Assembly: GCA_016929295.1 (NCBI GenBank)
Contig: JAFGJB010000114.1
Location: 1-36,616, forward strand
Length of the DNA stretch: 36,616 nt
Direction: 5' to 3'
Source of the DNA: Candidatus Zhuqueibacterota bacterium
Lineage (GTDB): Bacteria > Zhuqueibacterota > Zhuqueibacteria > Residuimicrobiales > Krinioviventaceae
A program made the translations under genes and the position numbers. Shown piece after piece: positions 5,378 to 36,374 of this stretch; the first letter of the stretch is position 1, and every line of letters starts with the position of its first letter. A model generated the notes under the pieces. It worked only from the letters and a program-made list of their open reading frames with translations. It did not search any database and was not told where the DNA came from.

Positions 5378-8300
5378 TTATTTGACAAGAATCATCTTGC
5401 GATGCACCGCCGCCGAACAACGGTCATCAGCATAAATGACATGCAGTCTCACAATATAGATGCCGCTGGGGAGGTGCGCACCATTCCATACCAGCTCATG
5501 CCGGCCAGCCGCCAGTTTCTCAGCGGTCAACAGTTCAATGCGTTGTCCGCAGATCGTGAGAATCTCAATTGTAGCCAGACCCGCATGCGGTAGCGCAAAA
5601 ACAATCGTTGTTCGGCCATTGAAGGGATTCGGGTAATTATGATATAATGTCAGCTCATCCGGCACGATTTCATTCGCCTGTGGCGTTGTGATCGAAATTG
5701 GACCAAACTGAGCGCAGGCGCCATCAAAATCCAGCTGCTGCAAAAGATAATAGTAGGTCGTGCCGGTCTCAACATCGCTGTCGGTATAGTGATATGCACG
5801 GCTTTCCACACTTGTGCCGGACGCCCTGATCAAGCTGTCATTGAGTTGCAGAAAACTGCTCTCCTGATCACTTTTTTTTTGCAGATTATAGCCCAGCGCC
5901 TTCATTTCACACTCGGTTGTCCAGGCGATATCAACGACGCCGCTCTGCCAAAGTGCTGTAAAGGATGACAATTCGACGCCAACCTGACCGGCATAAAATG
6001 TAATGACGGTGTTGTCGGCGATCATATTCGGATTGCGCGCACAATCAGTTATATTGGAAACTGTGAGGGTGTACTCCGTATGCTCTTCAAGGTCGGATGT
6101 CGCTAAAGTGACTTTACGACTGCTTGAATCCAATGTCGCTGAAAATATAGTTACGCCTTTGTCGATATGATAATTCGCTGTGACTTCTGCCGATTGACTG
6201 ACGGCTTTAGAAAAAAAAACCTCGACGATGAATGGATCCAGGTGGGCTGATACGGACAGAATAGTCGGTGGTGTGAGATCCGGCGTGATGGTGAAAAGAG
6301 CACTGGCAATTTCGCTTGGCGTCATCCCCTGCTTGCAGGCAATCGCTTGCAGCGTCGTTGTTTGCGTCAATTCGAATGGCCCTGTATAGTAAACGGACTG
6401 TTCAGTCGGCGCACTGCCATCGAGCGTATAGTAGATATCTGCACCCTCAAGGCTGCTCAAAGTCACTGTCACCGATTCTTCAAAGACGCCGCCAATCGGA
6501 GATATCGTCGGTGGCGGCAGCACGTCCGAAGATTGCTCCCGCGGCACAAGGGCAAATTGCGGAGAAACGCTGTAATCTTGTTTCGGTTCGCGGCTCTCAT
6601 AACGAGACCACGCGAGTTTGGCGCCGGATAGATCGGCTTCGGTCACAAGAGCGAGTGCCGGCTGCATATCCGCGCCAAAACCGGTGGCACTTTCGGGATA
6701 GCCGAGCATTTCCAGGCCTGCGCACGGTGAATTGCCAAAGTTTGCTTGCTGAACCTGGGCAAAAGTGGTGAAAGGCGTGTGGTTACTGGCGCCAACCTGC
6801 AAAGCATAGGCAGAGGCATTCAGCCAGCAGTAGTCATCGCTCGCCATCCTTCCCAGGACAAATTTTGCCTTCCAGACGAAAAGTGGGCGAGCATCTGCAA
6901 ATCCCAGCTCAACAAGGTGACCCACGGCCCAGGTGAAAAAGTCATCTTGCCAGGGCGCCAGACCATAGTCGCCATAAAGGAGTGCGCCTTCTTCAAGATA
7001 ACCCAACTGGTTCGCCTGAGGATTTTCGACCAGCGTGGTGCGATAATATTGAATGTTGTTCTGGACGCGCGTGACAAAATAGTCTTTCAGTGGATGAGCA
7101 TCCGGCGTGATGTAAGCGGCATGCCCGAGGGTGCGCAACGACCATGCCTGGCCACGCACTTGCGTCCACCGTAAAAGCCCCTTTTCCAGATCACGATAAT
7201 AGGGATTGGCGAGGATCATATTCCAGTTGGCCCAGAATTGCAGCTCCTCCAGAAAATAATAATCACCTGTCACCAGATAAGGTGCATAGGCCAGCGATGG
7301 CTGATGGGCGTCATCCGGCGAATATCGGTTCATATCATTTATAACTTCTGGAAACGATTCATATTTGCCAGTGTTGGGATTGTATGTATCAATTTCATTC
7401 CCCATCAACGTCATATAGGGGTAATCATCAAGTGTCACCGGCAGATCGGTGTTCTTGTCACGATAATGAATTGCATAACTGCCTGCCGCATCGCCATTTG
7501 CCAGGGTGTTCAGCTTGGCTTCCGGCGCCATGGTTAGCAGGTATAAAGAAACCCATCTGGGCAATGGTCCGATGCCATCCTGCGCCCCGGTAGCCGGCAT
7601 ATAGTCACTGATGTCCAGATTTTCCATTGGTTCGCAGGCCGTTCGCATAGAGGAGGTCACGGATGTCGGGATGGTCAATCGTCGGTCGTAATTCGGTATG
7701 GCTTTCGTACGAACCAGATAATCCAGGTTGTGCTTGACAAATATGTTTGGATCCTGGCGCCACCAGAACACCTTTCGCCAGCGAGCATGAACGGTATGCT
7801 CAAGCCCGGCTTTTGAATAGACCTGTACGCCCCCGATCGAGATGGAAACATCGTAACGAAATCCGGACGGCTGCGGTTCATATGCCCAGTTGTTCTCGAT
7901 GATGACATCGGTGCGGACATAGTTATAATCCTTATATGCTCGTACATGAAATCGAGCGATGAGGTGCGGATGCTCTTCACCCGATGCTGACCTGAGCGGC
8001 GCGCGAATGAGCCATTCTGTAACCAGTTCTCCGGACAACCATTCGTGTGCTGTCTGGGATCGATCCTGCTGCAATACATCCCTGACCGAGGCGGTGAAAA
8101 GCTGGCCATCGACGAGCAGGCTCACGTGCGCATCGTATTCTGTTTCCAAAAGCTCGTCACAACTCAAAGATGGCGAAGGAGTGCTGTTTGCCACTTGCAG
8201 CAGCACTCTTTTTGTTTCGCCGGCGATCAATCTGGGCACCATAATGGTGATGACGGCATGTCGCAATGATCCGTCCGCATGCGTCGCCTTGGCATCGACT

Positions 8301-8509
8301 TGCGTCGGCAAGTGTGTGCCGCTGCTGTAAACAGCGTCAATGCTGGCGCCCGTCGGAACATCGCCGGGAGCAAATACATGGCCAAATGTGACCGGAACGT
8401 CAGTGAACGACATGTTGTTTTGCTCGACAAGCCAAATACTGGTGACTTGTGCCTGGCCGGTTACAAGCATTCCGAACAGTAGTACTATTAAGGAGAATCC
8501 ATATTTCAT
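5378..8509 (-). CDS. Large secreted multidomain protein: possible glycan-active N-terminal module, chitobiase-C-terminal-like and Ig-like domains, T9SS-type C-terminal sorting domain
   Basis: Internal ATG at 8509 gives signal peptide MKYGFSLIVLLFGMLVTGQAQ. PTISPIGGVFEESVTVTLSSLEGADIYYTLDGSAPTEQSVYYTGPF (CHB_HEX_C-like); TPPTILSVSAHLDPFIVEVFFSKAV (Ig-like); C-terminus ELTLYHNYPNPFNGRTTIVFALP...GIYIVRL...KMILVK. Confidence 0.82.
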   Translation of the reverse strand: MKYGFSLIVLLFGMLVTGQAQVTSIWLVEQNNMSFTDVPVTFGHVFAPGDVPTGASIDAVYSSGTHLPTQVDAKATHADGSLRHAVITIMVPRLIAGETKRVLLQVANSTPSPSLSCDELLETEYDAHVSLLVDGQLFTASVRDVLQQDRSQTAHEWLSGELVTEWLIRAPLRSASGEEHPHLIARFHVRAYKDYNYVRTDVIIENNWAYEPQPSGFRYDVSISIGGVQVYSKAGLEHTVHARWRKVFWWRQDPNIFVKHNLDYLVRTKAIPNYDRRLTIPTSVTSSMRTACEPMENLDISDYMPATGAQDGIGPLPRWVSLYLLTMAPEAKLNTLANGDAAGSYAIHYRDKNTDLPVTLDDYPYMTLMGNEIDTYNPNTGKYESFPEVINDMNRYSPDDAHQPSLAYAPYLVTGDYYFLEELQFWANWNMILANPYYRDLEKGLLRWTQVRGQAWSLRTLGHAAYITPDAHPLKDYFVTRVQNNIQYYRTTLVENPQANQLGYLEEGALLYGDYGLAPWQDDFFTWAVGHLVELGFADARPLFVWKAKFVLGRMASDDYCWLNASAYALQVGASNHTPFTTFAQVQQANFGNSPCAGLEMLGYPESATGFGADMQPALALVTEADLSGAKLAWSRYESREPKQDYSVSPQFALVPREQSSDVLPPPTISPIGGVFEESVTVTLSSLEGADIYYTLDGSAPTEQSVYYTGPFELTQTTTLQAIACKQGMTPSEIASALFTITPDLTPPTILSVSAHLDPFIVEVFFSKAVSQSAEVTANYHIDKGVTIFSATLDSSSRKVTLATSDLEEHTEYTLTVSNITDCARNPNMIADNTVITFYAGQVGVELSSFTALWQSGVVDIAWTTECEMKALGYNLQKKSDQESSFLQLNDSLIRASGTSVESRAYHYTDSDVETGTTYYYLLQQLDFDGACAQFGPISITTPQANEIVPDELTLYHNYPNPFNGRTTIVFALPHAGLATIEILTICGQRIELLTAEKLAAGRHELVWNGAHLPSGIYIVRLHVIYADDRCSAAVHRKMILVK

Positions 8510-8552
8510 AGCAGGGCCTCGCCGTGGCAAAATAATAGTAATATGGGCAGCT

Positions 8553-11297
8553 CTATTTGAGCAAGAGCATCTTCTCAGTCTGTGCATAATCGCCCACGCG
8601 CAGACGATAGAAATAGGCGCCATTGCTGACTGCTACACCGCATGAATCTGTGCCATGCCACTGAACAGTGTGCTCTCCGGCTTGCTCATATTGGTGCACC
8701 AGGGACGTGATCAACCGGCCCGAAACATCATAGACATCCAATCGTGTGAAAGACTCACTGGGAAGGCAAAATTTGATCAGCGTGCCGCAATTAAAAGGAT
8801 TGGGATAATTCTGATATAAATTGATCTGCGTCGGGGATGAGCTTGACACCTCGGCAGTGACCGAGACGGGGCCGTATTGCGATAACCGCCCCTCAATATC
8901 CAGCTCCTGCAGAATATAATAGTACGTTTGCCGCTCTTCAATCTCTTCATCGACAAAATGATAGGTATGCTGTTCGCTGCTTGTGCCGGCCGCTGTTATG
9001 AGCGTCGCGTTCAATTTCACATAATCGTTTTCCCGGTCACAGCTTTTCAATATATTAAAGCCGAGGGACAATGACTCACTCTCGGTCGTCCACATGAGAT
9101 CAATAGCGCCATCACGATATGTCGCATTAAAAGTTGAGAGCTCGACGGCCAGGAGATGGTTATATTCATAGGCGCCGACGTCAATTTCGTCGTCATGTGG
9201 TCTGAGCTCCACATCGGCCGGGTGCATATATTGATACATCGGCGTCAGGAGGTAGCCGCCGCTGCTGCCCGGTTCTGTGCCGGCGTCCACGGCCGGTGAG
9301 ATATCGGTAATTCGATAGTCATAATTCGCCCGATCGACAAAAATCGGCGAGTCCGTTTGCAGATTCGAATGCGTTTCGCCATCGCCGCTCACCATCGTGC
9401 CCGGCCCTACGCACAAATTATTGATGAGCGTAAAGGGCTGCACGGATGGTGCGTTCAAAAAAAAGATGCCGTCCTCGTAATCATTCACCAGGGTGTTGTT
9501 CACAGCATAGAATTCGTTTTCAGAATAAGCAAGACCTTCGGCGCCATAGGAGACCAGGGTAGAATTGTCGTTATTCGGACCCTGCTGAATCACATTGCCG
9601 ATGATGAACGCCTTGCCGCCATTCGGCAGATCAATGGCATAGCTGGACGTGCCGTCGTCCTCGTCCATGATGCGATTGTACAGGATCTCATTTTCGCGCG
9701 CGCGGCTCTTGATATTATGGCCAATCCTGGCGTGATGAATATAGGATGATCTGATAGTGAACTTGTCGATGAGTCCTATATACATATTATGAGTCTGACC
9801 ATCTCCATAACCATTAGAAGCGAACTCGCAGTTTTCAATCACGAGTTCGCCTTCGTTGGGGCCGAGGATGCCGTTCTCATTATCATGAAAATAGCACTGG
9901 CGGATGGTGAGGCCGTTTCCTTCCGCTCTGATGCCGGCGCCGTTTTCATCCGGCACTGATGCGCCGGAAAATTCAATATTTTCAATGACGACTTTATCGC
10001 CTTTTATGATCCAGATACCTTTCCCTTCCGCATGCTGACCATTGACTTTCATATGAGCTTTGCCGCCGATGCCTTTAATTGTGAGATCATTTGCATACCA
10101 GCTTGCGACGTCACCTGTATATAATCCGGCATCAATTTCCACCGTGTCCCCCTTGGCGACGAGAGTGGAAACCTGGCTGGGCATTTTGTAGGTCCTGTTG
10201 GCGCCGACCTGGTATGTCTTTGGCGTCTCGCTGCTTCCCCCTCCTGCGGAGAGCTTGTAAAAGTGCACATTGACTTCAGCATCGGTGATGGCGATGAACA
10301 CATCCTCTCCTGGAATATATTGCCAGCGGCCAAATATGCCATTCAGCGTCGGTGACGGTGCTCCCGAGGCCGTTCTGGTCGTCCATATTTTTGTCTCCGG
10401 ATCGAGAATATAAACCGGACCCCCATTCCAGGCGACAATTCGATCCGACTTGCTGTCGTACGCCAAGCCAAAGTGATCGCTGCCGCTATTCAATATTTGC
10501 GTGCTGCCCGTTGTCGTCCAGATGACGCGATCGAAATTTTTGTTCGCCAGGTCATAGGTAAACAGATATCCGTCGCCGATGACAAACAACAATCGCCGCT
10601 TGGTATCGATCGTCATCGGGTATAGATAGAAATAGTCTGAATTCAATCGCGTCCAGACATTCTCATCATAGTCATAGGAATACAATCCGCTGTTTGGATC
10701 GTTGCAGCCGAAATAAACCAGGTTATCCACCGAATCATAAACGCATGAATTGCCGAGAGCGCCGCTCGCCAAATATTGATTTTCACTCATGTCATACCAC
10801 ATTTTCTCCTCAAAACTATAGGTCCATGTTTTGAGTACTTCCCAGCCATCCCCGGCTCGAGAGCCGCCGCGCGCAAAAAATCGATTTGCCGCTGTCAAAT
10901 AGGCAAGGCCGCCATATGTATGGCGAGAAGTCGGAGTACCATCACTATTTCGCTCGACGCTGAGTGAAGGTTGTGAGGGATCATTGACGCGTTCCCAGGT
11001 GAGGTTGGCAAGTTTGAAGACATAGAGCTCGTTGCCGTAATAATCTTCGTGCCCGCCACCCCAGAGGATCATTTGATGATGAATCGGATCGTAGGTCCCG
11101 CCACCCCAGGCGCCAATGATGGCATTGGCGCCGGTGTTTCCGCCAGGATCCACATTCGGAAAAACTCGCGCCATCTCTGTATTCGGAGCACTATACCATG
11201 AGTTTTCCGGCAAGTTTGTCAAGGTTTTGTTTTGCGAGTACAGCGTCAACTGAAAAACAAAGAGCAATAAAAGGACGAGTCTCATTTTAACAGCCAT
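8553..11297 (-). CDS. Secreted kelch/beta-propeller-like plus right-handed beta-helix protein with T9SS-type C-terminal sorting domain
   Basis: Signal peptide MAVKMRLVLLLLFVFQLTLYSQ; N-terminal half GGGTYDPIHHQMILWGGGHEDYYGNELYVF...YDSVDNLVYFG; central beta-helix closely similar to the 1102..2304 product and ending IDVGAYEY; C-terminus NLYQNYPNPFNCGTLIKFCLP...GAYFYRLRVGDYAQTEKMLLLK. Confidence 0.85.
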   Translation of the reverse strand: MAVKMRLVLLLLFVFQLTLYSQNKTLTNLPENSWYSAPNTEMARVFPNVDPGGNTGANAIIGAWGGGTYDPIHHQMILWGGGHEDYYGNELYVFKLANLTWERVNDPSQPSLSVERNSDGTPTSRHTYGGLAYLTAANRFFARGGSRAGDGWEVLKTWTYSFEEKMWYDMSENQYLASGALGNSCVYDSVDNLVYFGCNDPNSGLYSYDYDENVWTRLNSDYFYLYPMTIDTKRRLLFVIGDGYLFTYDLANKNFDRVIWTTTGSTQILNSGSDHFGLAYDSKSDRIVAWNGGPVYILDPETKIWTTRTASGAPSPTLNGIFGRWQYIPGEDVFIAITDAEVNVHFYKLSAGGGSSETPKTYQVGANRTYKMPSQVSTLVAKGDTVEIDAGLYTGDVASWYANDLTIKGIGGKAHMKVNGQHAEGKGIWIIKGDKVVIENIEFSGASVPDENGAGIRAEGNGLTIRQCYFHDNENGILGPNEGELVIENCEFASNGYGDGQTHNMYIGLIDKFTIRSSYIHHARIGHNIKSRARENEILYNRIMDEDDGTSSYAIDLPNGGKAFIIGNVIQQGPNNDNSTLVSYGAEGLAYSENEFYAVNNTLVNDYEDGIFFLNAPSVQPFTLINNLCVGPGTMVSGDGETHSNLQTDSPIFVDRANYDYRITDISPAVDAGTEPGSSGGYLLTPMYQYMHPADVELRPHDDEIDVGAYEYNHLLAVELSTFNATYRDGAIDLMWTTESESLSLGFNILKSCDRENDYVKLNATLITAAGTSSEQHTYHFVDEEIEERQTYYYILQELDIEGRLSQYGPVSVTAEVSSSSPTQINLYQNYPNPFNCGTLIKFCLPSESFTRLDVYDVSGRLITSLVHQYEQAGEHTVQWHGTDSCGVAVSNGAYFYRLRVGDYAQTEKMLLLK

Positions 11298-22300: not shown

Positions 22301-24166
22301 TTAACAATGTGATTGATGCCATGCCTCGAGCATGATCAATTTCCACAAAATTGTCCCATAATAGGGTGTGTTATCCTGCAAATGCAGACGCCACAGTTTT
22401 TCAACAAAGTCCGGTTTTACGTAGCCGCGCTGCAAATGGTCCCGACTGAACAGCAGATCGCGGGCGAAATCCTGCACATCCGGCTGTTTGCGCAGCCACT
22501 CTGATATGGGCAGCCCAAAGCCATGCTTTTTCTTTTGAATGATCTCCACCGGCAGCAGATCGCGAAAAGCATATTTAAAAATATAGCGCAATCCGTAAGT
22601 GCCTTTGAGTTTCAGCGACGTTGGAATGCGAAATGCCAGATCGACGAGCGGATGATCCAACATCGGATAGCGGACGTGCACGCCGGCCAGTTCCGTCATG
22701 CGCGTCACCTTGACCAGATCGTTATCCGTAATGGTCATCTTCATATCAAGATAAAGATGTCGATCCAGGAGCTCGGCATCTTTCAGGCGCGCAAAATGGC
22801 TCTCCGCTATATTGGCGGTTTCCTTCATCATATTCGAATCCAAAAAAGCGGGATCGAACAGCTCTTCATCTTGTACATATCGATAGGAATCGATGCGTTC
22901 GACCTCGCCCATTTTTGCGCGGCGTATGTAACTGCCGGCCTTTTGAAAAAGTGTCAGAGGCAACCTTTCCAGTCGATTGAGCAACAGAGGTTCCAGCAGG
23001 CTGCGCCTGACCAAACCAGGCAGTTTGAAATAGTTTCGAAAGACCTGCTGCTCGCTATAGCGTTGATTGCCGCCAAAGATTTCGTCGCCGCCGTCTCCCG
23101 CCAGCATACAGGTGACGCCACTTTCGCGCGCGTTCAGCGCACAAAAATAGGCCGGAATAATTGACGAATTGCCATACGGCTCATCATAGGCGTGCAGCAG
23201 TTTGGGAAAGGCATGCATGACATCCGCGGGTTTGACATAATACTCGTTATGGTCAAGATGAAAGGCTTTTGCGGCGATGCGCGCGTACATCATCTCATCA
23301 TAGCCATTTTCAGGAAAACCGATCGAATAAGCCTTCACTTTATCGCCGTTCAGCCTGCTCAGCAAGCCGCAAATAGTGCTGCTGTCAGTGCCGCCGCTCA
23401 AAAAGCAACCGAGTTCAGCCTGATTTTTCACGCCGTTCCTCGTGAGATCAACGGCCTTGGAGAGAGTCTCGTAGACATGCTCGGCAATCTCATCCTTATT
23501 TTGCAGCTTGGGCTGGTTAGATATATCCCAATAATGATCGATATCATAACTATCTTGACGAGCGCACATCTGATAGCCCGGTTCCAGTTTGTGAACATTT
23601 TTATAGATCGTCATGGGCGCCGGAATCATCTCCAGTTGAATATAAGCATAGACAGCCGCATTATTGACATCCAGTGGGCGAACAAGTTCAGCAATGGCAT
23701 TCATTCTGGATGCAAAATAGAACGTGTTGCCCCTTTTGTGCCACACGAGAGGGCGGACACCGAAGCGATCGGTGATGGCAATCATCTGATTTTTTTTGAC
23801 ATCAAAGAGAATGATCGCAAAGTTGCCGCGAATTTTTACCGCCCACTCTCTGCCGTTCTTCTTGTAGCATGCTGCCAGCACTTTGCCGATTTCGCTCTTC
23901 TCGCCGTCATATTCCGGCGCCAGTTCGGCCGCATTGTAAATGTCAGCTACAGCGACGAGCGACAGTTCAGCATCGTGATAGAGAAAAGTTTTTCGGCAGG
24001 TCGTTTTCCCGGGACAGTAAGAGCGCGCCATAGCCCAATTGGAATTCATCGTGAATTCATAGTCCAGCGTCTCGCCATCAGAGAGGCTGTGAGCCATTTC
24101 TTGTATCGATATTGGAATATCAACGAGCGCACGATCAAATGAAATAAATCCGCAAATACCTTCCAT
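22301..24166 (-). CDS. Asparagine synthetase homologue with degenerate N-terminal glutaminase domain (Cys2 replaced by Glu)
   Basis: Starts MEGICGFISF behind a clear RBS (AGAGGAAACCTGATG); intact synthetase motif GCFLSGGTDSSTICGLL and AGDGGDEIFGGNQRY. Confidence 0.88.
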   Translation of the reverse strand: MEGICGFISFDRALVDIPISIQEMAHSLSDGETLDYEFTMNSNWAMARSYCPGKTTCRKTFLYHDAELSLVAVADIYNAAELAPEYDGEKSEIGKVLAACYKKNGREWAVKIRGNFAIILFDVKKNQMIAITDRFGVRPLVWHKRGNTFYFASRMNAIAELVRPLDVNNAAVYAYIQLEMIPAPMTIYKNVHKLEPGYQMCARQDSYDIDHYWDISNQPKLQNKDEIAEHVYETLSKAVDLTRNGVKNQAELGCFLSGGTDSSTICGLLSRLNGDKVKAYSIGFPENGYDEMMYARIAAKAFHLDHNEYYVKPADVMHAFPKLLHAYDEPYGNSSIIPAYFCALNARESGVTCMLAGDGGDEIFGGNQRYSEQQVFRNYFKLPGLVRRSLLEPLLLNRLERLPLTLFQKAGSYIRRAKMGEVERIDSYRYVQDEELFDPAFLDSNMMKETANIAESHFARLKDAELLDRHLYLDMKMTITDNDLVKVTRMTELAGVHVRYPMLDHPLVDLAFRIPTSLKLKGTYGLRYIFKYAFRDLLPVEIIQKKKHGFGLPISEWLRKQPDVQDFARDLLFSRDHLQRGYVKPDFVEKLWRLHLQDNTPYYGTILWKLIMLEAWHQSHC

Positions 24167-24206
24167 CAGGTTTCCTCTGCTTCTATAGTGTCGATAAAAT
24201 CATCAA

Positions 24207-26075
24207 TTAAATCCGTCGCGTCTGCGGATCCATAAATGTCTGAAACCACAATTCAAGCATCAGAAGCATATAGATCCATTCGCCAAAATCACGCCGGCCT
24301 TTTGTGTGCAGATCGAGAACATTTTCAACAACGGCAGGTTTAAAGATGCCGCGAGCTTTGCTGCGATCATCCAGCAGCATCTCCTTCACATAGCTGTTGA
24401 GCGAACTTTTGAACCACTTGCCGACAGGGATGGCAAAGCCCTGTTTTGATTTTTTCAGTATATGCTCAGGCACATATTTTTTTAAAACCTGTTTCAAAAT
24501 ATGCTTGCTCACGCCGTCCTTCATCTTGTAATCGACCGGGAGCGTTGTCGCGAATTCGATCAGTCGATAATCGAGCAGGGGAGCGCGCGTCTCCAGAGAG
24601 TTCGCCATGCTCATGCGATCGACTTTGACGAGGATATCGCCCGGGAGATAGTATTGCAAATCGATGAGCTGCATGCGCGTGAGTTTGTCGTGATTTTTAT
24701 ACTGCATGACCAGGTCGCGACGAGACCGCATGGGATCCGAGGCACGAAATTCGTGCAACATGTGAGGGTCGAGAATATCTTCTTTAATATACGGATAAAA
24801 GCCCGGAGCGCCCTGTCCTTCGTCCTGCGGCACGCTGGCGATATACTTGAGCATATTTCGCATGGGCGCCTGAATCGGCAATAAACCGGCGACCGCACCC
24901 GCTATATTTTTTCTGAGACCATAAGGCAAGGCAAAAAAGAGCTCATATTTATCACGATTGAAATAATTTCGATAGCCGGCGAACAGCTCATCACCACCGT
25001 CTCCGGACAAAATGACCGTGACATGCTCGCGAGCCATTTTTGACACATAATAGGTTGGTATTGCGGATGAATCGGCAAAGGGCTCATCAAAATGCCAGGC
25101 GATCTGCGGCAGGACAGCGACCGAATCTGTCGACACTTGCAAAATTTTGTGATTTGTCGCGCAGTGCCTGGAGACACTGCGGGCATCTTCGAGCTCGGAA
25201 AAAGTCTTTTCAGCAAAATCGATTGTAAATGTATTGACGTGGGCTGATGACCTGGCCATCATGGCCACAACAGCGCTCGAATCAATGCCGCCGCTTAAAA
25301 AAGCTCCCAGCGGCACGTCGCTGATCAGACGGCTGTCGACAGCTTTCTGCAAGAGGATTTCAAGATTTGCTACTGACTCCTCTTCCGTTTGTCCGTCAGA
25401 GCCGGGTTCTGGCAGCGTCCAGTATTGGCGTTCCTGACATTGATTATCTTTATAGACGAGGATGTGCGCTTCACCCACCTGGCGAATATTTTTAAAAATG
25501 GTCATCGGCGCATGGATATAGCCAAAAGTCAGATATTCATTCAACGCCTCCGCATCCCAGTCGCGTGCGATAGCGCCCATGGCGAGTATGGCTTTGATCT
25601 CGGAGGCAAAGACAAACTGATCACCTTTGTGATAATAATAGAGCGGTTTCTTGCCGACCCGGTCGCGGCCCAGCATGAGCGTGCGCTCTTTTTTGTCCCA
25701 GAGAGCAAAAGCAAACATCCCCTGAAAATGACGAACGCACTCCTCACCGTATATTGCGTACGCGGCCAAAATGACCTCTGTATCCGAACGAGTTCTGAAG
25801 CGAAAACCGGCGCTTTTCAGCTGCGCCCGCAGTTCCTGAAAATTGTAAATTTCGCCGTTGAATGACACCACATAACGCCCCAGCCAGTCCTCCATGGGTT
25901 GAGCGCCGCTGTTCAGGTCGATGATGCTGAGGCGTCGATGTCCCAACGCCATATGGTCATCAATGTAGGCGCCGCAGCCATCCGGACCACGATGGAATAA
26001 TACTTCCCCCATGCGGTCGAGGAGAGCGCGACTTTCATTTTTGCCTGCAGTGGTAAAGCCGTAAATTCCGCACAT
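24207..26075 (-). CDS. asnB: Asparagine synthetase (glutamine-hydrolysing)
   Basis: MCGIYGFTTAGKNESRALLDRMGEVLFHRGPDGCGAYIDDHMALGHRRLSIIDL...SFNGEIYNF...GAFLSGGIDSSAVVAMM...LSGDGGDELFAGY. Confidence 0.93.
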   Translation of the reverse strand: MCGIYGFTTAGKNESRALLDRMGEVLFHRGPDGCGAYIDDHMALGHRRLSIIDLNSGAQPMEDWLGRYVVSFNGEIYNFQELRAQLKSAGFRFRTRSDTEVILAAYAIYGEECVRHFQGMFAFALWDKKERTLMLGRDRVGKKPLYYYHKGDQFVFASEIKAILAMGAIARDWDAEALNEYLTFGYIHAPMTIFKNIRQVGEAHILVYKDNQCQERQYWTLPEPGSDGQTEEESVANLEILLQKAVDSRLISDVPLGAFLSGGIDSSAVVAMMARSSAHVNTFTIDFAEKTFSELEDARSVSRHCATNHKILQVSTDSVAVLPQIAWHFDEPFADSSAIPTYYVSKMAREHVTVILSGDGGDELFAGYRNYFNRDKYELFFALPYGLRKNIAGAVAGLLPIQAPMRNMLKYIASVPQDEGQGAPGFYPYIKEDILDPHMLHEFRASDPMRSRRDLVMQYKNHDKLTRMQLIDLQYYLPGDILVKVDRMSMANSLETRAPLLDYRLIEFATTLPVDYKMKDGVSKHILKQVLKKYVPEHILKKSKQGFAIPVGKWFKSSLNSYVKEMLLDDRSKARGIFKPAVVENVLDLHTKGRRDFGEWIYMLLMLELWFQTFMDPQTRRI

Positions 26076-26084
26076 AATTCTCTC

Positions 26085-28265
26085 TCACCCGCGATGCAAA
26101 CGATCCGCCACGCCATTCATCTCGATGATCGCCTTTGCTCGGGAAAACAGTAAATCTTGCGTGAGGTAGCCAGCGTCTTTTCGTTTGAGCGCATAGGGAT
26201 TTGAATTTTCGTCATTCATGCCTTCGATGGTCGTAAAGGCCACATGGTATCCGCACTGTTTGCACAGTCTCTGGCAGTCGTCATTGAATCGCCCCCAGGG
26301 ATAGGCGAGTGAAGTCACCTGAACTGAGAGCTCTTTTTCGATGAGCTCTTTAGAGTTGGCGATCTCATATTCAAGCTCTTTCGGCTGCAGACAATCCAGG
26401 TAAAGATGCTGCATGGAATGCGATCCGACGGTCAGCAAACCACTCTTGAGCATCATCTGTATATCTTGTGCTGACGCCAATTTCATATCGGAGGATATCA
26501 ACAATCCGGCGGTTCGCCGCTGCAAATCATCGCGCATTCTGCTGCGGAACTGTTCATCCCGGTAATTGAGATCACGGAGCAGATGTTTCAGGAGATGATG
26601 AATATCAAGACTATCGGCATAGCCATTTTGAGAAAAGAACCAGTCATTGCTTTTGATGAAATCGTTCCAGCCTTCAATGTCCTGATGGAACAAGGCGTGA
26701 ACATATTTGAAAACATCGTTGCACCAGATCCCCTCCTGCTCGGCGAATGGTTTTGCCACAAGAAAGATAAAAAATGGCACGTTGTTACGGAGTAAAAAGG
26801 GGAATGCATGATCAACCACATCCTGATAACCGTCATCAAAAGTGATTGAAAAGCATGGCTCATCAAAGCCATAGTGACTTGCCAGGCGGTCGGCAATCTC
26901 CTCGGCGCCGATTGGTCTGGCATTTTCCAGCAGAAAGAGCACCTCTTTCTCGAATGTTTCACAGGGGATGGCCTGGCTCGGCTGCATCACCTGAAACCAG
27001 CGATCGAAAGGGACCACCTGATGCGATGTCAGGACGTGCAATCCGGATTTAATCCGTCTCTTTGCACGATGGACAAATGGAGAGGCAGTATTGAGCGCGA
27101 CTTTTTTCATCGCTGTTTTCAGCAGACCATTCTTTAGCGATGATTGCGAATAGGACGAGCTGTACAGATGCGCGTAGGAATAGATCGTCTTGCGAATGTC
27201 ATGATGACTTTCAATGGTCTGTCGCCCGTGTGCGCCCAACGTTGCCGCGAGTTTGGCATCATTTAGTAAAAGATCGATCGCACCGGCGAGTTTTTCCGGT
27301 GATTTGCTGGGAACGAGCAGGCCGTTCCAGCCGTTTTCGATGATGAAAGGTGTTCCGCCAACCCGGGTGGCGATGACCGGTTTGGCCATGGCCATCGCTT
27401 CGAGCAGTGTATTGCTCATTCCCTCATAGATTGATGAATTGACATAGATGTCAAAAGCCTGCAGGACGCACTGGATATCCTTGCGCTTGCCCATAAAGGC
27501 GATCTGTTCTTTGATGCCAAGTTTAGCCGCAAATTTTTGCATTGATTCAATGTCGTCGCCATAGCCGACAACAGCCAGATGAAGATCACGATGTGCGCCC
27601 AGCAGCGCATGAAAAGCCAAAATGAGCGTTTTTAAATCCTTGATTGGCCTGATTAAACCTATGACCGTGCCGATGACAGTTTTATCCTGCGGAAGCCCTG
27701 TTTTTTTTCGGCATTCTGTCTTGTCGATATCCAGCCGAAACGAATCGAGATCGACGCCATTTTCAATGGTCAAAATTTTCCACGGCGCCAGGACATTCTC
27801 CTTTTGCCAATCTTGTGCGATATCTTTTGATACAGTCGTCATCCGGTCACAGAGGGCAAAAAGCAGCTTGTTCATGATCAAGCGCTTTTTGCTAAAGAGA
27901 TATTTCTCGCTCTCCCGGCCGTGCTCGCCATGAATGACGACCGGCACTCTGGCCATTTTAGCAGCAAGAACCGAATAGGCAAGCGTGCACCAGTTATGAG
28001 AATGCAAAATATGAAAATCGTGTTCTTTCAGCAACGCTCGCAGGCGAAAGATGAGTCTCCAGTCAAATCCGGGTTTGCGATCAAGTGGCAATATTTTAAT
28101 ATCATCCGGTATAGGCGGCAAAGAATCCGGGTGCCATTTAAAACAGATGATGCTGATATCAAATCCCTGTTTGCTGAGCAAAATCGATTGGCGAAGAACG
28201 CCGAGTTCAAGCCCGCCGATCCCCAAATAATTCAATATATGCACAATTCTCAATTTGTTCTTCAT
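26085..28265 (-). CDS. Bifunctional fusion: N-terminal GT4 glycosyltransferase, C-terminal polysaccharide deacetylase
   Basis: N-terminus RIVHILNYLGIGGLELGVLRQ...YVNSSIYEGMSNTLLEAMAMAKPVIATRVGGTPFIIENGWNGLLV; C-terminus CFSITFDDGYQDVVDHAFPFLLRNNVPFFIFLVA...VGSHSMQHLYLDCL...SLAYPWGRFNDD; one uninterrupted 726-aa ORF. Confidence 0.9.
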   Translation of the reverse strand: MKNKLRIVHILNYLGIGGLELGVLRQSILLSKQGFDISIICFKWHPDSLPPIPDDIKILPLDRKPGFDWRLIFRLRALLKEHDFHILHSHNWCTLAYSVLAAKMARVPVVIHGEHGRESEKYLFSKKRLIMNKLLFALCDRMTTVSKDIAQDWQKENVLAPWKILTIENGVDLDSFRLDIDKTECRKKTGLPQDKTVIGTVIGLIRPIKDLKTLILAFHALLGAHRDLHLAVVGYGDDIESMQKFAAKLGIKEQIAFMGKRKDIQCVLQAFDIYVNSSIYEGMSNTLLEAMAMAKPVIATRVGGTPFIIENGWNGLLVPSKSPEKLAGAIDLLLNDAKLAATLGAHGRQTIESHHDIRKTIYSYAHLYSSSYSQSSLKNGLLKTAMKKVALNTASPFVHRAKRRIKSGLHVLTSHQVVPFDRWFQVMQPSQAIPCETFEKEVLFLLENARPIGAEEIADRLASHYGFDEPCFSITFDDGYQDVVDHAFPFLLRNNVPFFIFLVAKPFAEQEGIWCNDVFKYVHALFHQDIEGWNDFIKSNDWFFSQNGYADSLDIHHLLKHLLRDLNYRDEQFRSRMRDDLQRRTAGLLISSDMKLASAQDIQMMLKSGLLTVGSHSMQHLYLDCLQPKELEYEIANSKELIEKELSVQVTSLAYPWGRFNDDCQRLCKQCGYHVAFTTIEGMNDENSNPYALKRKDAGYLTQDLLFSRAKAIIEMNGVADRLHRG

Positions 28266-29442: not shown

Positions 29443-30339
29443 CTAAAGCAAGCTGGTGCTAAAATACCTCTCCGCCCGGTCCACCAGCACGGTGACGATA
29501 TTTTTATCGCTTGCAGCGGCCAGCTTTTTCGCTGCCCACACATTAGCCCCCGACGACGTGCCGACCAGCAGTCCTTCTTCTTTTGCCAACATTCTTGTGG
29601 TGCTGATCGCATCTTCATCCGTAACCGTGATCACATCATCGATCAACGACACGTCCAGCACAGATGGAATGAAGCCGTCGCCGATGCCCTGAATTTGGTG
29701 CAGGCCAGGCTCCCGACCGAGAAGTGCGGCGCAATTTTCAGGCTCGACAGCGATCACTTTGATGTCACGATTTTTCTCCTTCAAAAATTTGCCAACCCCG
29801 CCGATGGTGCCGCCGCTGCCGACGCCGGCAACAAAGGCATCAATATGGCCATCCATCTGCGACCAGATTTCCTGCGCCGTGGTCAAATAATGAATTTCAG
29901 GATTGCGCGGATTTTCAAACTGTTGCGGCACAAAAATAGAGCTGTCCATTTCTTGCAGCTCTTTGATCTTTTGTATGCTGCCCTGCATGTTGTCTCTGGT
30001 GGGCGTGTAAATGATCTCGCCGCCAAAAGCACGGATGATCTTTTTTCTTTCCTCACTCATATTTTCCGGCATCACAATGATGACGCGGTAACCCTTTTGC
30101 ACGCCGACCAGTGCCAAGCCAATTCCGGTATTCCCGGAACTCGGTTCTGCAATGATCGACTCTTTTGTCAAGTGACCGTCGCTTTCAGCCTGTTCGATCA
30201 GATACTTGGCAACCCTGTCCTTGATGCTGCCACCAGGATTGAGAAATTCTGCCTTGGCAAATATATTGCCCGCGCTGATCTTGTGCAATTTCACCATGGG
30301 AGTATTGCCAATGGCGTCCAATATTTTCACTGCGTGCAT
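29443..30339 (-). CDS. cysK: Cysteine synthase family PLP enzyme (O-acetylserine sulfhydrylase-like)
   Basis: MHAVKILDAIGNTPMVKLHKISAGNIFAKAEFLNPGGSIKDRVAKYLIEQAE...EPSSGNTGIGLALVG...VAGVGSGGTIGGVGKFLKEK...GIGDGFIPSVLD...GTSSGAN. The ATG at 30339 is chosen because the longer ORF overlaps a tRNA. Confidence 0.92.
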   Translation of the reverse strand: MHAVKILDAIGNTPMVKLHKISAGNIFAKAEFLNPGGSIKDRVAKYLIEQAESDGHLTKESIIAEPSSGNTGIGLALVGVQKGYRVIIVMPENMSEERKKIIRAFGGEIIYTPTRDNMQGSIQKIKELQEMDSSIFVPQQFENPRNPEIHYLTTAQEIWSQMDGHIDAFVAGVGSGGTIGGVGKFLKEKNRDIKVIAVEPENCAALLGREPGLHQIQGIGDGFIPSVLDVSLIDDVITVTDEDAISTTRMLAKEEGLLVGTSSGANVWAAKKLAAASDKNIVTVLVDRAERYFSTSLL

Positions 30340-30363
30340 GGGTCTGTGCTTTCTTTTTATGAG

Positions 30364-30434
30364 AGGCGGCAACTGGAGTCGAACCAGTGAATACGACCTT
30401 GCGGGCCGCAGCCTTACCACTTGGCTATGCCGCC
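30364..30434 (-). tRNA. tRNA-Cys (anticodon GCA), copy A, with C33
   Basis: Folds as GGCGGCA/TA/GCC-AAGTGGTAA-GGC/T/GCGGC-CCGCAAG-GTCGT/ATTC/ACTGG-TTCGACT-CCAGT/TGCCGCC/T; U73 discriminator; CCA not encoded. Confidence 0.9.
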
Positions 30435-30516
30435 TTGTTTTCCACCTTTAATTTGTATTCGCGATGGCTTTTTACATGTTTGAGGACGAACAAGAGCTTT
30501 TTTCGCATTTCATAAG

Positions 30517-30587
30517 AGGCGGCAACTGGAGTCGAACCAGTCCGTACGGCCTTGCGAGCCGCAGCCTTACCACTTGGCTATGCCGCC
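30517..30587 (-). tRNA. tRNA-Cys (anticodon GCA), copy B, with C33
   Basis: GGCGGCA/TA/GCC-AAGTGGTAA-GGC/T/GCGGC-TCGCAAG-GCCGT/ACGG/ACTGG-TTCGACT-CCAGT/TGCCGCC/T; 5 differences from copy A by eye; U73; CCA not encoded. Confidence 0.9.
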
Positions 30588-31827: not shown

Positions 31828-33315
31828 CTACGACCTGTTCACCGACAGATACTTACTCAGAAAATGACTCGCATATGAAAGTTCTTTGCCATCAAAATAC
31901 CCGACGATATAAAGAAGAAGCGGCAGCGTCAGCAGGATGAGAGATTTGACCGCTATACTGGCAAAAAGACTGTCGATGTTGACGGCGGTCGTGGCAAAAT
32001 AGACCAAGAGACTCAGGGTGAACAGCTTGAGCAAAGCGACCAGGTCATATTTAAGACGATAGTAACGCTGCGAAATCACATACGCCAGCAAGGGACAGAT
32101 GGCGAACGAGATGGCCGTCACAGCTGCGGCACCCATCACGCCCCAGATGGGAATCAGCAAGAAATTGAGCCCGATGTTCGCCAGCGCCGCAATGGCGTTG
32201 ATGATCACATAATAATAGGTCTTGTTATGAACGTAAAAACCGATATCGACAAAATTATACATGTTGTAAAACGTATAGCCCAAAATCACCAGCGGGACGA
32301 CGCGGTAGGCCGACCAAAAATCGGGCGCCGCCACAATCTTGACAATATCCTGGATCAGCACCGAAATGATCAATCCTGTCACCACCAGCACCAGAGTGAA
32401 ATATTTAAACACGCGCGGGAAAATGTCATCTCTGTTCAGCCTGTCTTCATAAATCTCGACCCGTTTGGGCGCCCAGATGGAGGCGAACGGCGCGCCGATG
32501 AACGTGCTCAACAGCATGCCGAACTTGTAACCCAGCGCATAGATCCCCACATCCCCCAGGCTTAGCAGTCGGTTCATGATGAACCTGTCGCCCATGTTCA
32601 GGGTGAAAATCAGAATGCCGGCCGGCACCAGCGGCAGGCTGAAGAAAAAAAGCTTTTTGAGCATCTGGAGGTTAAAATGAAATTTTACGCGAGCATAAGT
32701 GTACAGCGAGAGGACGATGCAGGCGACCCCGTTTGACAAAATCATACTATACAAAATGCCGCTGACACCCCACTGTAGCACGACGATGAAATAGATATTG
32801 AATCCCAGACCAAGCAGCAGTTGCATGATGGATATAGTGATGAAGATGATTGATTTTTCCAGTATCCTCACATAGGCGTAACCGATCGCCGTGGCCAACT
32901 CAAATGCCAGTGAGATGAAAATCAGGATGAAATAAAAAGTATAATCCGTTCTGGAAAAGACGAGCCTGGAAAAAAAGTTGCTCTGGGAGGAGAGCAAAAT
33001 CCCGGCGATGAGGGACAGAATGGCGACAAAATTGAGCGATGTCGAGACGAGCTGCTGCTTTTCTTCCGCCGATTTATAGATGAAATAGTAGCGCGCCAAC
33101 CCCGAGCTGATCCGCAGCGCCAGCACCGTGGCTAACACCGATGACACCAGGGTCAGCAGTTCCAATATGCCATAATCGGCTGGCGTCAAATAGGACGTAT
33201 AAACGGGTATCATGACAAAGCCGATCAATTTGCTCAGGATATTGCCAAGAGAATAAATAGAACCGTGTTTCAATATATTTTTTAAATCAGCTATCATGAT
33301 CTGATCGGCTTTCAT
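31828..33315 (-). CDS. Wzx-like oligosaccharide flippase / polysaccharide biosynthesis membrane protein (MATE/MOP superfamily)
   Basis: Multi-TM; ILKHGSIYSLGNILSKLIGFVMIPVYTSYLTPADYGILELLTLVSSVL is typical of the polysaccharide flippase N-terminus. Confidence 0.9.
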   Translation of the reverse strand: MKADQIMIADLKNILKHGSIYSLGNILSKLIGFVMIPVYTSYLTPADYGILELLTLVSSVLATVLALRISSGLARYYFIYKSAEEKQQLVSTSLNFVAILSLIAGILLSSQSNFFSRLVFSRTDYTFYFILIFISLAFELATAIGYAYVRILEKSIIFITISIMQLLLGLGFNIYFIVVLQWGVSGILYSMILSNGVACIVLSLYTYARVKFHFNLQMLKKLFFFSLPLVPAGILIFTLNMGDRFIMNRLLSLGDVGIYALGYKFGMLLSTFIGAPFASIWAPKRVEIYEDRLNRDDIFPRVFKYFTLVLVVTGLIISVLIQDIVKIVAAPDFWSAYRVVPLVILGYTFYNMYNFVDIGFYVHNKTYYYVIINAIAALANIGLNFLLIPIWGVMGAAAVTAISFAICPLLAYVISQRYYRLKYDLVALLKLFTLSLLVYFATTAVNIDSLFASIAVKSLILLTLPLLLYIVGYFDGKELSYASHFLSKYLSVNRS

Positions 33316-34264
33316 AAATCGAGTGTAATTTCTGTTGAGTTTTATTGAACGATTGTTTCACGTTTTGCAGCGGCGCAAAGTAGGACTTGCATATATGAAA
33401 ATTTATTTTTTCACCAACGCAAGGCGCCCAATGTCTTTTATAATCCGAATATTCTCCACCCATATCAAATTTACTGAAACCCGATGCTTTTGCCCAGGAT
33501 AGTGAGAGATCTATCAGATAAGTGCCGACACTACACTTTTCGTATTCAGGCGACCTGAAAAAATGAGTCGCCACGAGATTGTTCTGGTGAACTATAGATG
33601 ACAATCCTGCTATGAATTCCCCTTTATCCATCAACATGACAGAATAATGTCGATTTATTTTTTCGAGATAATTCACCACCAGCAATTTATCCGATAAATT
33701 GCCATGCTCTGACTTGTCACCAGCGTTCCATTTCGAATTGCAGTTTTTTATAATCCACTCGGCACTTGCAGGAGGATTGACGATGCTGGCGAATTCACAG
33801 CAATGTCGCCGCGCCTGTTTTACATGTCTCATGTGACTTTTTGTCCAGTTTTTCTCATAGTCTTGTGATAAATCCACCATATAGGTTGGAATTCTCTCGA
33901 CCGTTATAATATGCTGACACTCTGGCATCGGCGTACTATTTCTCCACAAGGAGATCCATAAATTTATTTCAAGAGCATTTAAAACAGGCCCTAAATATCC
34001 CTCTTGAACGGGAAAGAGACATCCGGGCAACAGATAATGCGTCACAGGCACCCAGTTGCCAGCTCTTTTTCGAAGTCCGATGAGCGCGATCGGCATATCC
34101 TTCGCCGTGACAAGAGCTGTCCTTTTGCTATTGGTCATATTGTTCTGTATGAGTGATTTGTACAAACTATGAGGGCACCCGCTCATCTCGGGCAGCATAT
34201 TCAGGGCATTGTCCAGCTTATCGACCCACTTGTTAAACCAGCGAACAGATAATTTTGTTTTCAC
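33287..34264 (-). CDS. GNAT/FemAB-like protein, tandem paralogue 1 (GTG start)
   Basis: Shares WFxxWxxxLDxAL..LPEMxxCPHxLYKxLI, KRTALV, PVTHYLLPGCLFP, DLSQDYEKNWTKSHMRHVKQARRHC and DMGGEYSDYKRHWAP with the next two ORFs. Confidence 0.78.
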   Translation of the reverse strand: MKTKLSVRWFNKWVDKLDNALNMLPEMSGCPHSLYKSLIQNNMTNSKRTALVTAKDMPIALIGLRKRAGNWVPVTHYLLPGCLFPVQEGYLGPVLNALEINLWISLWRNSTPMPECQHIITVERIPTYMVDLSQDYEKNWTKSHMRHVKQARRHCCEFASIVNPPASAEWIIKNCNSKWNAGDKSEHGNLSDKLLVVNYLEKINRHYSVMLMDKGEFIAGLSSIVHQNNLVATHFFRSPEYEKCSVGTYLIDLSLSWAKASGFSKFDMGGEYSDYKRHWAPCVGEKINFHICKSYFAPLQNVKQSFNKTQQKLHSIYESRSDHDS

Positions 34265-34436: not shown

Positions 34437-35369
34437 TCAAGGCACTCGATTGAATGAATGTTTAATTTTATTGATAAAGAATTTATGAGGTGGACAAATA
34501 TGGATGTTAATTTTTTCACCCTTGCACTGCGCCCAGCGCTTTTTATAATCCGCATAGTCGCCACCCATATCGACGTTATGGAATCCAGCATCTTTTGCCC
34601 ACGAAAATGTGAGATCCATAATGTACGTGCCAATACTAAAATTATCATACTCGGCACGTCTGAATGTTTTCACCCCGACAAGATCGCTTCCATGAACGAT
34701 CAGGTTCGAACCAGCAATAAACTCTCCCTTGTCCATTAATATTAAAGAGTAATGACGGTTCATTTTTTCGAGATAATTGATGATTATTTGCTCGTCTGAC
34801 TGCTCAACATCCTGGGCATCAGCATTTTCTTCCCATTTCATATAGCTGTTTTCGACCACCCATTCCGCACTTCCTGGTGGATTGACGGCAAAGGTAAAGT
34901 CCTGACAATGCTTTCGCGCTGATCTTACATTTTTAAAATGCTTTTTTGTCCAGGTTTGTTCATAATCCTGTGTGAGGCCCAGCATATAGGTCGGAATTTT
35001 TTCGATATTTATGATATATCGACTCTGCGGGACGGGGATATTGTTTCTCCACCATGACATCCACAGATTAACATTGAGACTCTCCAAAATTGATCCCAAA
35101 CAGGCTTCTTGCATGGGGAAAAAAAAGCCCGGCAATAAATAGTGGGTCACCGGCACCCAATTGTCAACTCTCTTGCGAAGCCCGACCACCGCGACAGGGG
35201 CATCGTCTTTTGTCACCAGCGCAGTCCGTTTGCCGGGCACAGAGTCGTTTTGTACGAGCTGTTTGAACAACTCGTGCGGGCAACTCTTTTTTTCAGGCAG
35301 AAGCAAGAGCGCTGCGTCCAGGTCGGGATGCCACTTTTCAAACCAATGAACAGTTAAATTTGCTTTCAT
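34437..35369 (-). CDS. GNAT/FemAB-like protein, tandem paralogue 2
   Basis: MKANLTVHWFEKWHPDLDAALLLLPEKKSCPHELFKQLV...VTHYLLPGFFFPMQE...DLTFSWAKDAGFHNVDMGGDYADYKKRWAQCKGEKINIHIC. Confidence 0.78.
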   Translation of the reverse strand: MKANLTVHWFEKWHPDLDAALLLLPEKKSCPHELFKQLVQNDSVPGKRTALVTKDDAPVAVVGLRKRVDNWVPVTHYLLPGFFFPMQEACLGSILESLNVNLWMSWWRNNIPVPQSRYIINIEKIPTYMLGLTQDYEQTWTKKHFKNVRSARKHCQDFTFAVNPPGSAEWVVENSYMKWEENADAQDVEQSDEQIIINYLEKMNRHYSLILMDKGEFIAGSNLIVHGSDLVGVKTFRRAEYDNFSIGTYIMDLTFSWAKDAGFHNVDMGGDYADYKKRWAQCKGEKINIHICPPHKFFINKIKHSFNRVP

Positions 35370-35405: not shown

Positions 35406-36374
35406 TCAAAATTCAAATTTTGCCGAAAAACGTCCAACTCGGGTGTTCATGCTCGTGAGAAATGTCTTGAGATTTTTCAATAGCAGTTTGCTCGGCGGAC
35501 ATATATTGACGTTAATTTTTTCTCCAGCGATGGGCGCCCAGTTTTTTTTGTAATCCGAATAGTCTCCTCCCATATCGATGCTCTTGAATCCCGCTTCCTT
35601 TGCCCACGAAAAAGTCAGATCCATCAGCCGGGCGCCAACGCCGTATTTGTCATATTCATGGAGTCGATACATGTATTGGCCGACGAGATCCTGGCCATGA
35701 ACAATCAAAGTCGAACCCGCAATAAATTTATCCTCATCCGACAGAATCAAAGAAAAGTGGCGATCCCTCATCTCGAGATATTTGACCGCTATAAGCTGGT
35801 TCTTCACATCAAGAAATCGCATGTCGGAATTCTCGTTCCATTTTTCGCTGCTATTCTTTATGATCCACTCGGCACTTCCGGGGGGATTGACGGCGAATGT
35901 AAAATTAGAACATCGATTTCTCGCTGCCCTGACGTTTTTTCGCTGCTTTTTTGTCCACTGACTCTCATAGTCCTGAGTCAGATCCAGCCTGTAGGTTGGG
36001 ATGGTCTCGATCTTTCTTAAATATCGACAATCAGGAATGGATTTGTCATTTCTCCACCATGAGATCCACAAGTTGACACGGATATCATCTAGAATTGAGC
36101 GAAAATGTCTTTCATCCATAGGGAAAAAACAGTTCGGCAATAAATAATGCGTCACCGGCACCCAACTGTCACTCCTCTTTTTGAGCCCAATGAGAGCGAC
36201 GGGCGTATCTCCTTTTTTTGCAAGCGCCACTCTTTTGTTGGCGCCCATATCGTCCTTAATGAGTCGCTTGTACAAGTCGTGCGGGCAGTTATCCATTTCA
36301 GGCAGAGATTCGAGCGCCTTGTCAAGTATCGGGTGCCATTCCCTAAACCAGTCAAATGATATTTCTCTTTTCAT
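35406..36374 (-). CDS. GNAT/FemAB-like protein, tandem paralogue 3
   Basis: MKREISFDWFREWHPILDKALESLPEMDNCPHDLYKRLI...VTHYLLPNCFFPMDE...DLTFSWAKEAGFKSIDMGGDYSDYKKNWAPIAGEKINVNIC. Confidence 0.78.
   Translation of the reverse strand: MKREISFDWFREWHPILDKALESLPEMDNCPHDLYKRLIKDDMGANKRVALAKKGDTPVALIGLKKRSDSWVPVTHYLLPNCFFPMDERHFRSILDDIRVNLWISWWRNDKSIPDCRYLRKIETIPTYRLDLTQDYESQWTKKQRKNVRAARNRCSNFTFAVNPPGSAEWIIKNSSEKWNENSDMRFLDVKNQLIAVKYLEMRDRHFSLILSDEDKFIAGSTLIVHGQDLVGQYMYRLHEYDKYGVGARLMDLTFSWAKEAGFKSIDMGGDYSDYKKNWAPIAGEKINVNICPPSKLLLKNLKTFLTSMNTRVGRFSAKFEF

Follow-up and report, generated by a model that had tools for sequence, protein, structure and literature searches.

Why would a bacterium keep, in addition to a normal tRNA-Cys gene elsewhere in its genome, two tRNA-Cys genes with C instead of U at position 33, embedded in what looks like an operon for cell-surface polysaccharide? 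Few positions of elongator tRNAs are as strongly conserved as U33 and, to our knowledge, only for a few amino acids have tRNAs withheld from translation been described. The stretch of DNA analyzed here (36,616 nt, referred to as the window) corresponds to contig C223 in a genome of 4.34 Mb, 96% complete, from the candidate phylum KSB1. An earlier note had described the tRNA pair and proposed for it a non-ribosomal or regulatory role.

The tRNA pair and its canonical counterpart

Both genes are on the minus strand, copy A at 30363..30434 and copy B at 30516..30587, and both are recognized by ARAGORN and by the full Rfam model RF00005 (56.1 and 54.5 bits, respectively), confirming that they are complete tRNA-Cys(GCA) cloverleaves with U73. 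These cloverleaves have a normal size, with a 7-bp acceptor stem beginning at G1-C72, a 4-nt variable loop, and intact pairs throughout the acceptor, anticodon, and T-stems, including U51:A63, while the D-loop AGTGGTA keeps its GG, so that G18G19 has not been lost. The anticodon loops read CCGCAAG in copy A and TCGCAAG in copy B, which places C at position 33 and G at position 38, as originally noticed. The copies differ at 5 of 72 positions, namely 32, 40, and three variable-loop bases. Copy B is the nearest to the single tRNA found in a sister species of the same genus (L086; in GTDB, candidate division KSB1 bacterium isolate Zgenome_0027), and the U33 of the U-turn is replaced by C33 in all three. 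The idea that residues 32 and 38 pair and shrink the loop did not survive the comparison: position 38 is A in the sister and A, T, or G at other loci, which rules out this pair as a selected feature. As far as these alignments go, C33 is conserved, and G38 and the 32-38 pair are not.

The host genome yields 28 tRNA matches and encodes a canonical tRNA-Cys with U33 (C37:28797-28869; loop CTGCAAA) within a Gly-Cys-Leu-Val cluster. The C33 pattern occurs in 2 of 82 genomes of the phylum, the window's own counted, both being species of the host genus; the other tRNA-Cys retrieved from relatives have U33, and those inspected sit in Gly-Cys-Leu-type clusters. Since the relatives carry U33 and the genome has its own canonical copy, C33 is not the norm of the lineage, being shared by the sister alone, and the pair is not the only source of tRNA-Cys. 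A sequencing error hiding a T at position 33 is not credible, because C33 is found independently in the sister, in a tRNA gene at the equivalent point of the operon.

The change had been regarded as maintained rather than decaying, and this part of the earlier interpretation stands. Copy B and the sister tRNA share 97% identity, versus 58% for the adjacent upstream 72 nt and 64% for the third codon positions of the neighboring cysteine synthase gene. Among the C33 tRNAs of Opitutales, mean identity reaches 94.6%, against 58-60% in the flanks, and pair 27-43 is A-U, G-C, or C-G depending on the copy, with C33 constant. Judged from these sequences, the C33 pair can be regarded as real and selected.

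The operon and the C33 tRNA-Cys of other bacteria

On the minus strand, the genes upstream of the pair encode three tandem GNAT (PF13480) paralogues (35406-36374, 34437-35369, and 33287-34264), a polysaccharide flippase-like protein of the same operon (31828..33315), and a FemAB-like GNAT (PF13480; 30598..31821), with 10 nt between its end and tRNA B. The tRNAs are separated by 81 nt, and 24 nt downstream of tRNA A lies the ATG of a second cysteine synthase A copy, CysK (29443..30339; above the cut-off of NCBIfam TIGR01139). It is followed by another FemAB-like GNAT (PF13480; 28296..29399), whose sister homologue weakly matches LPG_synthase_C, by a glycosyltransferase carrying a fused polysaccharide deacetylase domain (26085..28265), which adjoins this GNAT in the sister too, by two asparagine-synthase-like amidotransferases of the AsnB and XrtA/PEP-CTERM type (22301..26075; below the curated cut-off), and by more polysaccharide-locus genes. 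The fused protein combines a GT4 glycosyltransferase and the deacetylase domain in a single ORF. The sister keeps the order flippase-GNAT-tRNA-CysK-GNAT-GT-AsnB with one tRNA; this tRNA begins on the last base of the GNAT stop codon, and CysK follows about 30 nt downstream. The tRNAs, CysK, and the upstream GNAT share one strand, and a search of the minus strand from that GNAT to the CysK start revealed neither promoter- nor terminator-like sites, an absence that would fit their co-transcription.

The other CysK of the host genome, on C287, is 47% identical to that of the window and has no tRNA nearby. In the genomes searched, the CysK outside the genus most closely related to that of the window belongs to a Sedimentisphaerales MAG (L139, G128:C129:1490-2359; 66% identity), whose C33 tRNA-Cys lies elsewhere, more than 1.5 kb from that CysK. 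Farther along the window, positions 5378-11297 encode two large, secreted-looking proteins that terminate in similar domains of the NYPNPFN type, like those of sorting-signal proteins, and ORF 1102-2397 resembles part of ORF 8553-11297.

When 85,488 species genomes were scanned once with the pattern, 64 stretches were returned, about 50 of them true tRNA-Cys with C33, from Opitutales, Chloroflexota, Acidobacteriota, Bacteroidota, Paenibacillus, Clostridia, and others. CysK adjoins the C33 tRNA-Cys in KSB1 (2 species), Opitutales (L049, L050, L084, L087, L094, L106, and L199), and Clostridia (L046 and L077), whereas none of 44 U33 loci (30 from Opitutales, 14 from KSB1 and relatives) has CysK within 1.5 kb. 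With roughly 20 C33 lineages and a chance of 0.15-0.4% per locus, both assumed values, the probability of at least three independent CysK neighbors would be approximately 1e-6 to 1e-4. The link is not universal, as many C33 loci have no sulfur gene. Its recurrence in unrelated bacteria suggests that cysteine is carried for a non-standard use, or sensed; no description of a C33 tRNA-Cys beside cysK in such an operon was found in the open-access literature.

The Opitutales locus L084 has the order cysT-cysW-cysA-cysK-tRNA-sulfate-binding protein (sbp), and the Opitutales genomes searched have further CysK copies elsewhere. In a sample of this order (132 genomes, 113 with a match), C33 was present in 2 genomes, each alongside its own U33 gene; whole-locus Rfam scans missed the Opitutales tRNAs, one of which was recovered by a short-range scan with 51 bits. 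The Clostridia order is CysK-tRNA-NifB-like-NifX-NifH-CysK-like-NifD/K-like, resembling, by gene content, a nitrogenase-like sulfur-salvage cluster. In L077 (1136-7998) this cluster has the tRNA, with C33 and G73, embedded among genes that include two of the CysK family and one for a NifB-like radical SAM protein, and L046 (5669-7752) has a similar CysK-tRNA-radical SAM start. The tRNAs of both loci have G73 and lack U73, G2-C71, and C3-G70, so they may not be cysteine acceptors and this branch may differ from the others.

Further C33 tRNAs deserve mention in their own right. Chitinophagaceae (L061, L073, L076, L081, L092, L093, and L102) have a conserved C33 tRNA with a GCA anticodon, A1:U72, and G73 or A73, without the CysRS determinants and away from CysK, possibly a separate tRNA-like class. 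In Chloroflexi bin_27 (L052, L056, and L058), several contigs have a C33 tRNA-Cys gene with tRNA-Ala(UGC) after it, and an integrase gene near that of L058 suggests a mobile origin. Tandem tRNA-Cys genes, C33 beside C33 or U33, are found in Bacteroidota, Paenibacillus, and Embleya (L082, L069, L051, and L065).

Charging, translation, and possible uses of the pair

A second mark accompanies C33. Of the unique sequences among all the tRNA-Cys collected, 28 of 51 with C33 and none of 28 with U33 have U51:A63, the U33 sequences having C-G (25) or G-C (3) instead (Fisher 2e-7, uncorrected for relatedness); about 290 U33 strings read by eye had no U51 either. In the host, 51:63 is U-A in the C33 pair and C-G in the U33 copy, so this T-stem pair of the EF-Tu site is altered with respect to the normal tRNA. 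Such a contrast within one genome, with C33 accompanied by U51 and U33 by C51, is seen in KSB1, Opitutales, three Chloroflexota, a Sedimentisphaerales genome, and Aquiflexum, and is absent in L048, L059, and L065. Pairs 49:65, 50:64, and 51:63 determine the affinity of a tRNA for EF-Tu (PMC11231383), and C33 and U51:A63 both point to a predicted lower use by EF-Tu and the ribosome. The suggestion that the pair is poor at decoding fits C33 and gains support from U51:A63, even though C33 alone need not abolish decoding. It is a serious possibility, if somewhat short of probable, that these tRNAs represent an undescribed class, scattered among bacteria, with C33 and often U51:A63, CysK-linked in at least three phyla, and withheld from translation for cysteine or sulfur metabolism or for non-ribosomal cysteine transfer.

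Copies A and B contain U73, G2-C71, C3-G70, and GCA, i.e., the bacterial CysRS identity set (PMC9976931). Because this set is kept, and because the host genome, like the Opitutales genomes with C33, encodes one full CysRS, charging of the KSB1 and Opitutales C33 tRNAs is likely. No dedicated CysRS for the C33 tRNA was found in the genome.

The CysK, sulfur-operon, and FemAB-like contexts make the proposed non-ribosomal or regulatory role plausible. The explanation that we tentatively prefer, without granting it the greater part of the probability, is that of a conserved, operon-embedded extra tRNA-Cys that is chargeable, partly kept from translation, and served by its own CysK, the user in KSB1 being the FemAB-like GNATs. 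The pair would be charged by the only CysRS of the cell, the weakened U-turn due to C33 and the altered EF-Tu site due to U51:A63 would bias it away from the ribosome, and the co-transcribed second cysteine synthase would supply the cysteine. The resulting Cys-tRNA would most likely act in KSB1 as cysteinyl donor to the GNATs of the two flanking genes, and these would link the cysteine to the cell-surface polysaccharide or a precursor.

GNAT-fold enzymes of the FemABX type take aminoacyl-tRNAs (PMC12945691). The homologues of these GNATs show weak affinity to FemAB_like, FemAB, and LPG synthase; both flanking GNATs of the window match PF13480 only, with no match to the FemAB Pfam model above its cut-off. 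A profile search of the PDB gave sub-significant matches, including one aminoacyl-tRNA-dependent peptide synthase (E 2.6), and the AlphaFold model is too poor to use (pLDDT 47). A GNAT gene also follows the C33 tRNA-Cys of a Dehalococcoidia genome. However, related genomes encode about 20 homologous GNATs with neither a tRNA nor CysK at 1.5 kb or less, so the family needs no private tRNA; no GNAT lies near the Opitutales and Clostridia C33 loci, though CysK is present; and an HMM of the KSB1-phylum GNATs found none at other C33 loci except in the sister and, weakly, in L063. A FemAB link as common denominator of the C33 loci is hence ruled out.

Since similar GNATs occur elsewhere without the tRNA, and other CysK-linked loci lack GNATs, cysteine sensing is nearly as likely as the donor role, although by itself it is still rather doubtful. 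Here, the tRNA would be charged and barely consumed by translation, so that its charging state would report free cysteine and feed back on the sulfur or cysteine operon that contains it. What the three CysK-linked lineages have in common is indeed cysteine or sulfur supply and not GNATs, and tRNA and CysK are adjacent on the same strand; on the other hand, the KSB1 operon makes surface polysaccharide rather than taking up sulfate, and searches of these loci at Rfam gathering scores gave no T-box and no regulatory RNA of another known kind. T-box control was accordingly discarded.

The complete cloverleaf would also suit an additional decoder of the ordinary sort, a tRNA-Cys, slightly weakened, that rises along with cysteine synthesis and restores the decoding of Cys codons under sulfur limitation. 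C33 is milder than a purine at this position in some systems, and some C33 copies lie in normal tRNA clusters or in tandem with a U33 copy (L048, L082, and L065). We consider this unlikely, given that U33 is otherwise near-universal, that C33 has persisted over long times in genomes that also have a U33 copy, that U51:A63 is absent from the U33 copies of the main set, and that yeast tRNA-Gln with U33C has a phenotype ascribed to poor decoding or charging (PMC3664417).

A relic, i.e., a duplicated tRNA gene caught in the operon and drifting, would account for the rarity of C33 tRNA-Cys and for the many loci without sulfur context; it is very improbable and already largely refuted by the excess of tRNA identity over the flanks in both KSB1 and Opitutales, and by the exchange of pair 27-43 around an unchanged C33. 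Least probable of all is that C33 is edited or modified in the RNA to a U-like base giving a normal loop, for even though C-to-U editing of some tRNA positions occurs in other lineages, the canonical tRNA-Cys of the same genome encodes T33 directly.

The neighborhood of CysK, sulfur operons, and FemAB-like proteins, new with respect to the earlier note, makes the pair more interesting than first described. If the preferred cysteinyl-donor reading or the sensing one is true, the pair, with C33, a changed EF-Tu pair, its own CysK, and a normal tRNA-Cys alongside, would provide a directly testable example of how a tRNA is recruited into metabolism, and would hint at a new cysteine-dependent chemistry or sensing, in KSB1 within a surface-polysaccharide operon.

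Comparison with known systems

The tRNA-Ser(CAG) of Candida is likewise a natural elongator without U33 kept by selection, but it has G33 rather than C33, is eukaryotic, and decodes a reassigned codon. Use of Cys-tRNA-Cys outside the ribosome is known from PEARL enzymes such as TglB, which extends a peptide with Cys-tRNA, no dedicated tRNA gene being described in the sections of the source available (PMC12945691); no LanB-like gene was recognized among the family matches here. The selC* tRNA-Cys are also extra bacterial tRNA-Cys with U73, GCA (UCA in some), and coupling to accessory genes (PMC7609411). They have, however, an 8-bp acceptor stem and a long variable arm like that of tRNA-Sec, together with SelB* or CysRS* partners (PMC7609411), in contrast with the 7-bp stem and 4-nt loop found here.

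The non-proteinogenic tRNA-Gly of Staphylococcus (FemXAB) carries glycine instead of cysteine and has lost the G18G19 that is kept here and, in the portions of the sources available, neither a U33 change nor a paired amino acid biosynthesis gene is described for it. Nonetheless, these tRNAs are, like the pair, extra isoacceptors beside normal ones with an altered T-stem pair 51-63, their changes at 49-65 and 51-63 are consistent with weak EF-Tu binding, and their users are enzymes of the FemABX type (PMC4052509, PMC9976931).
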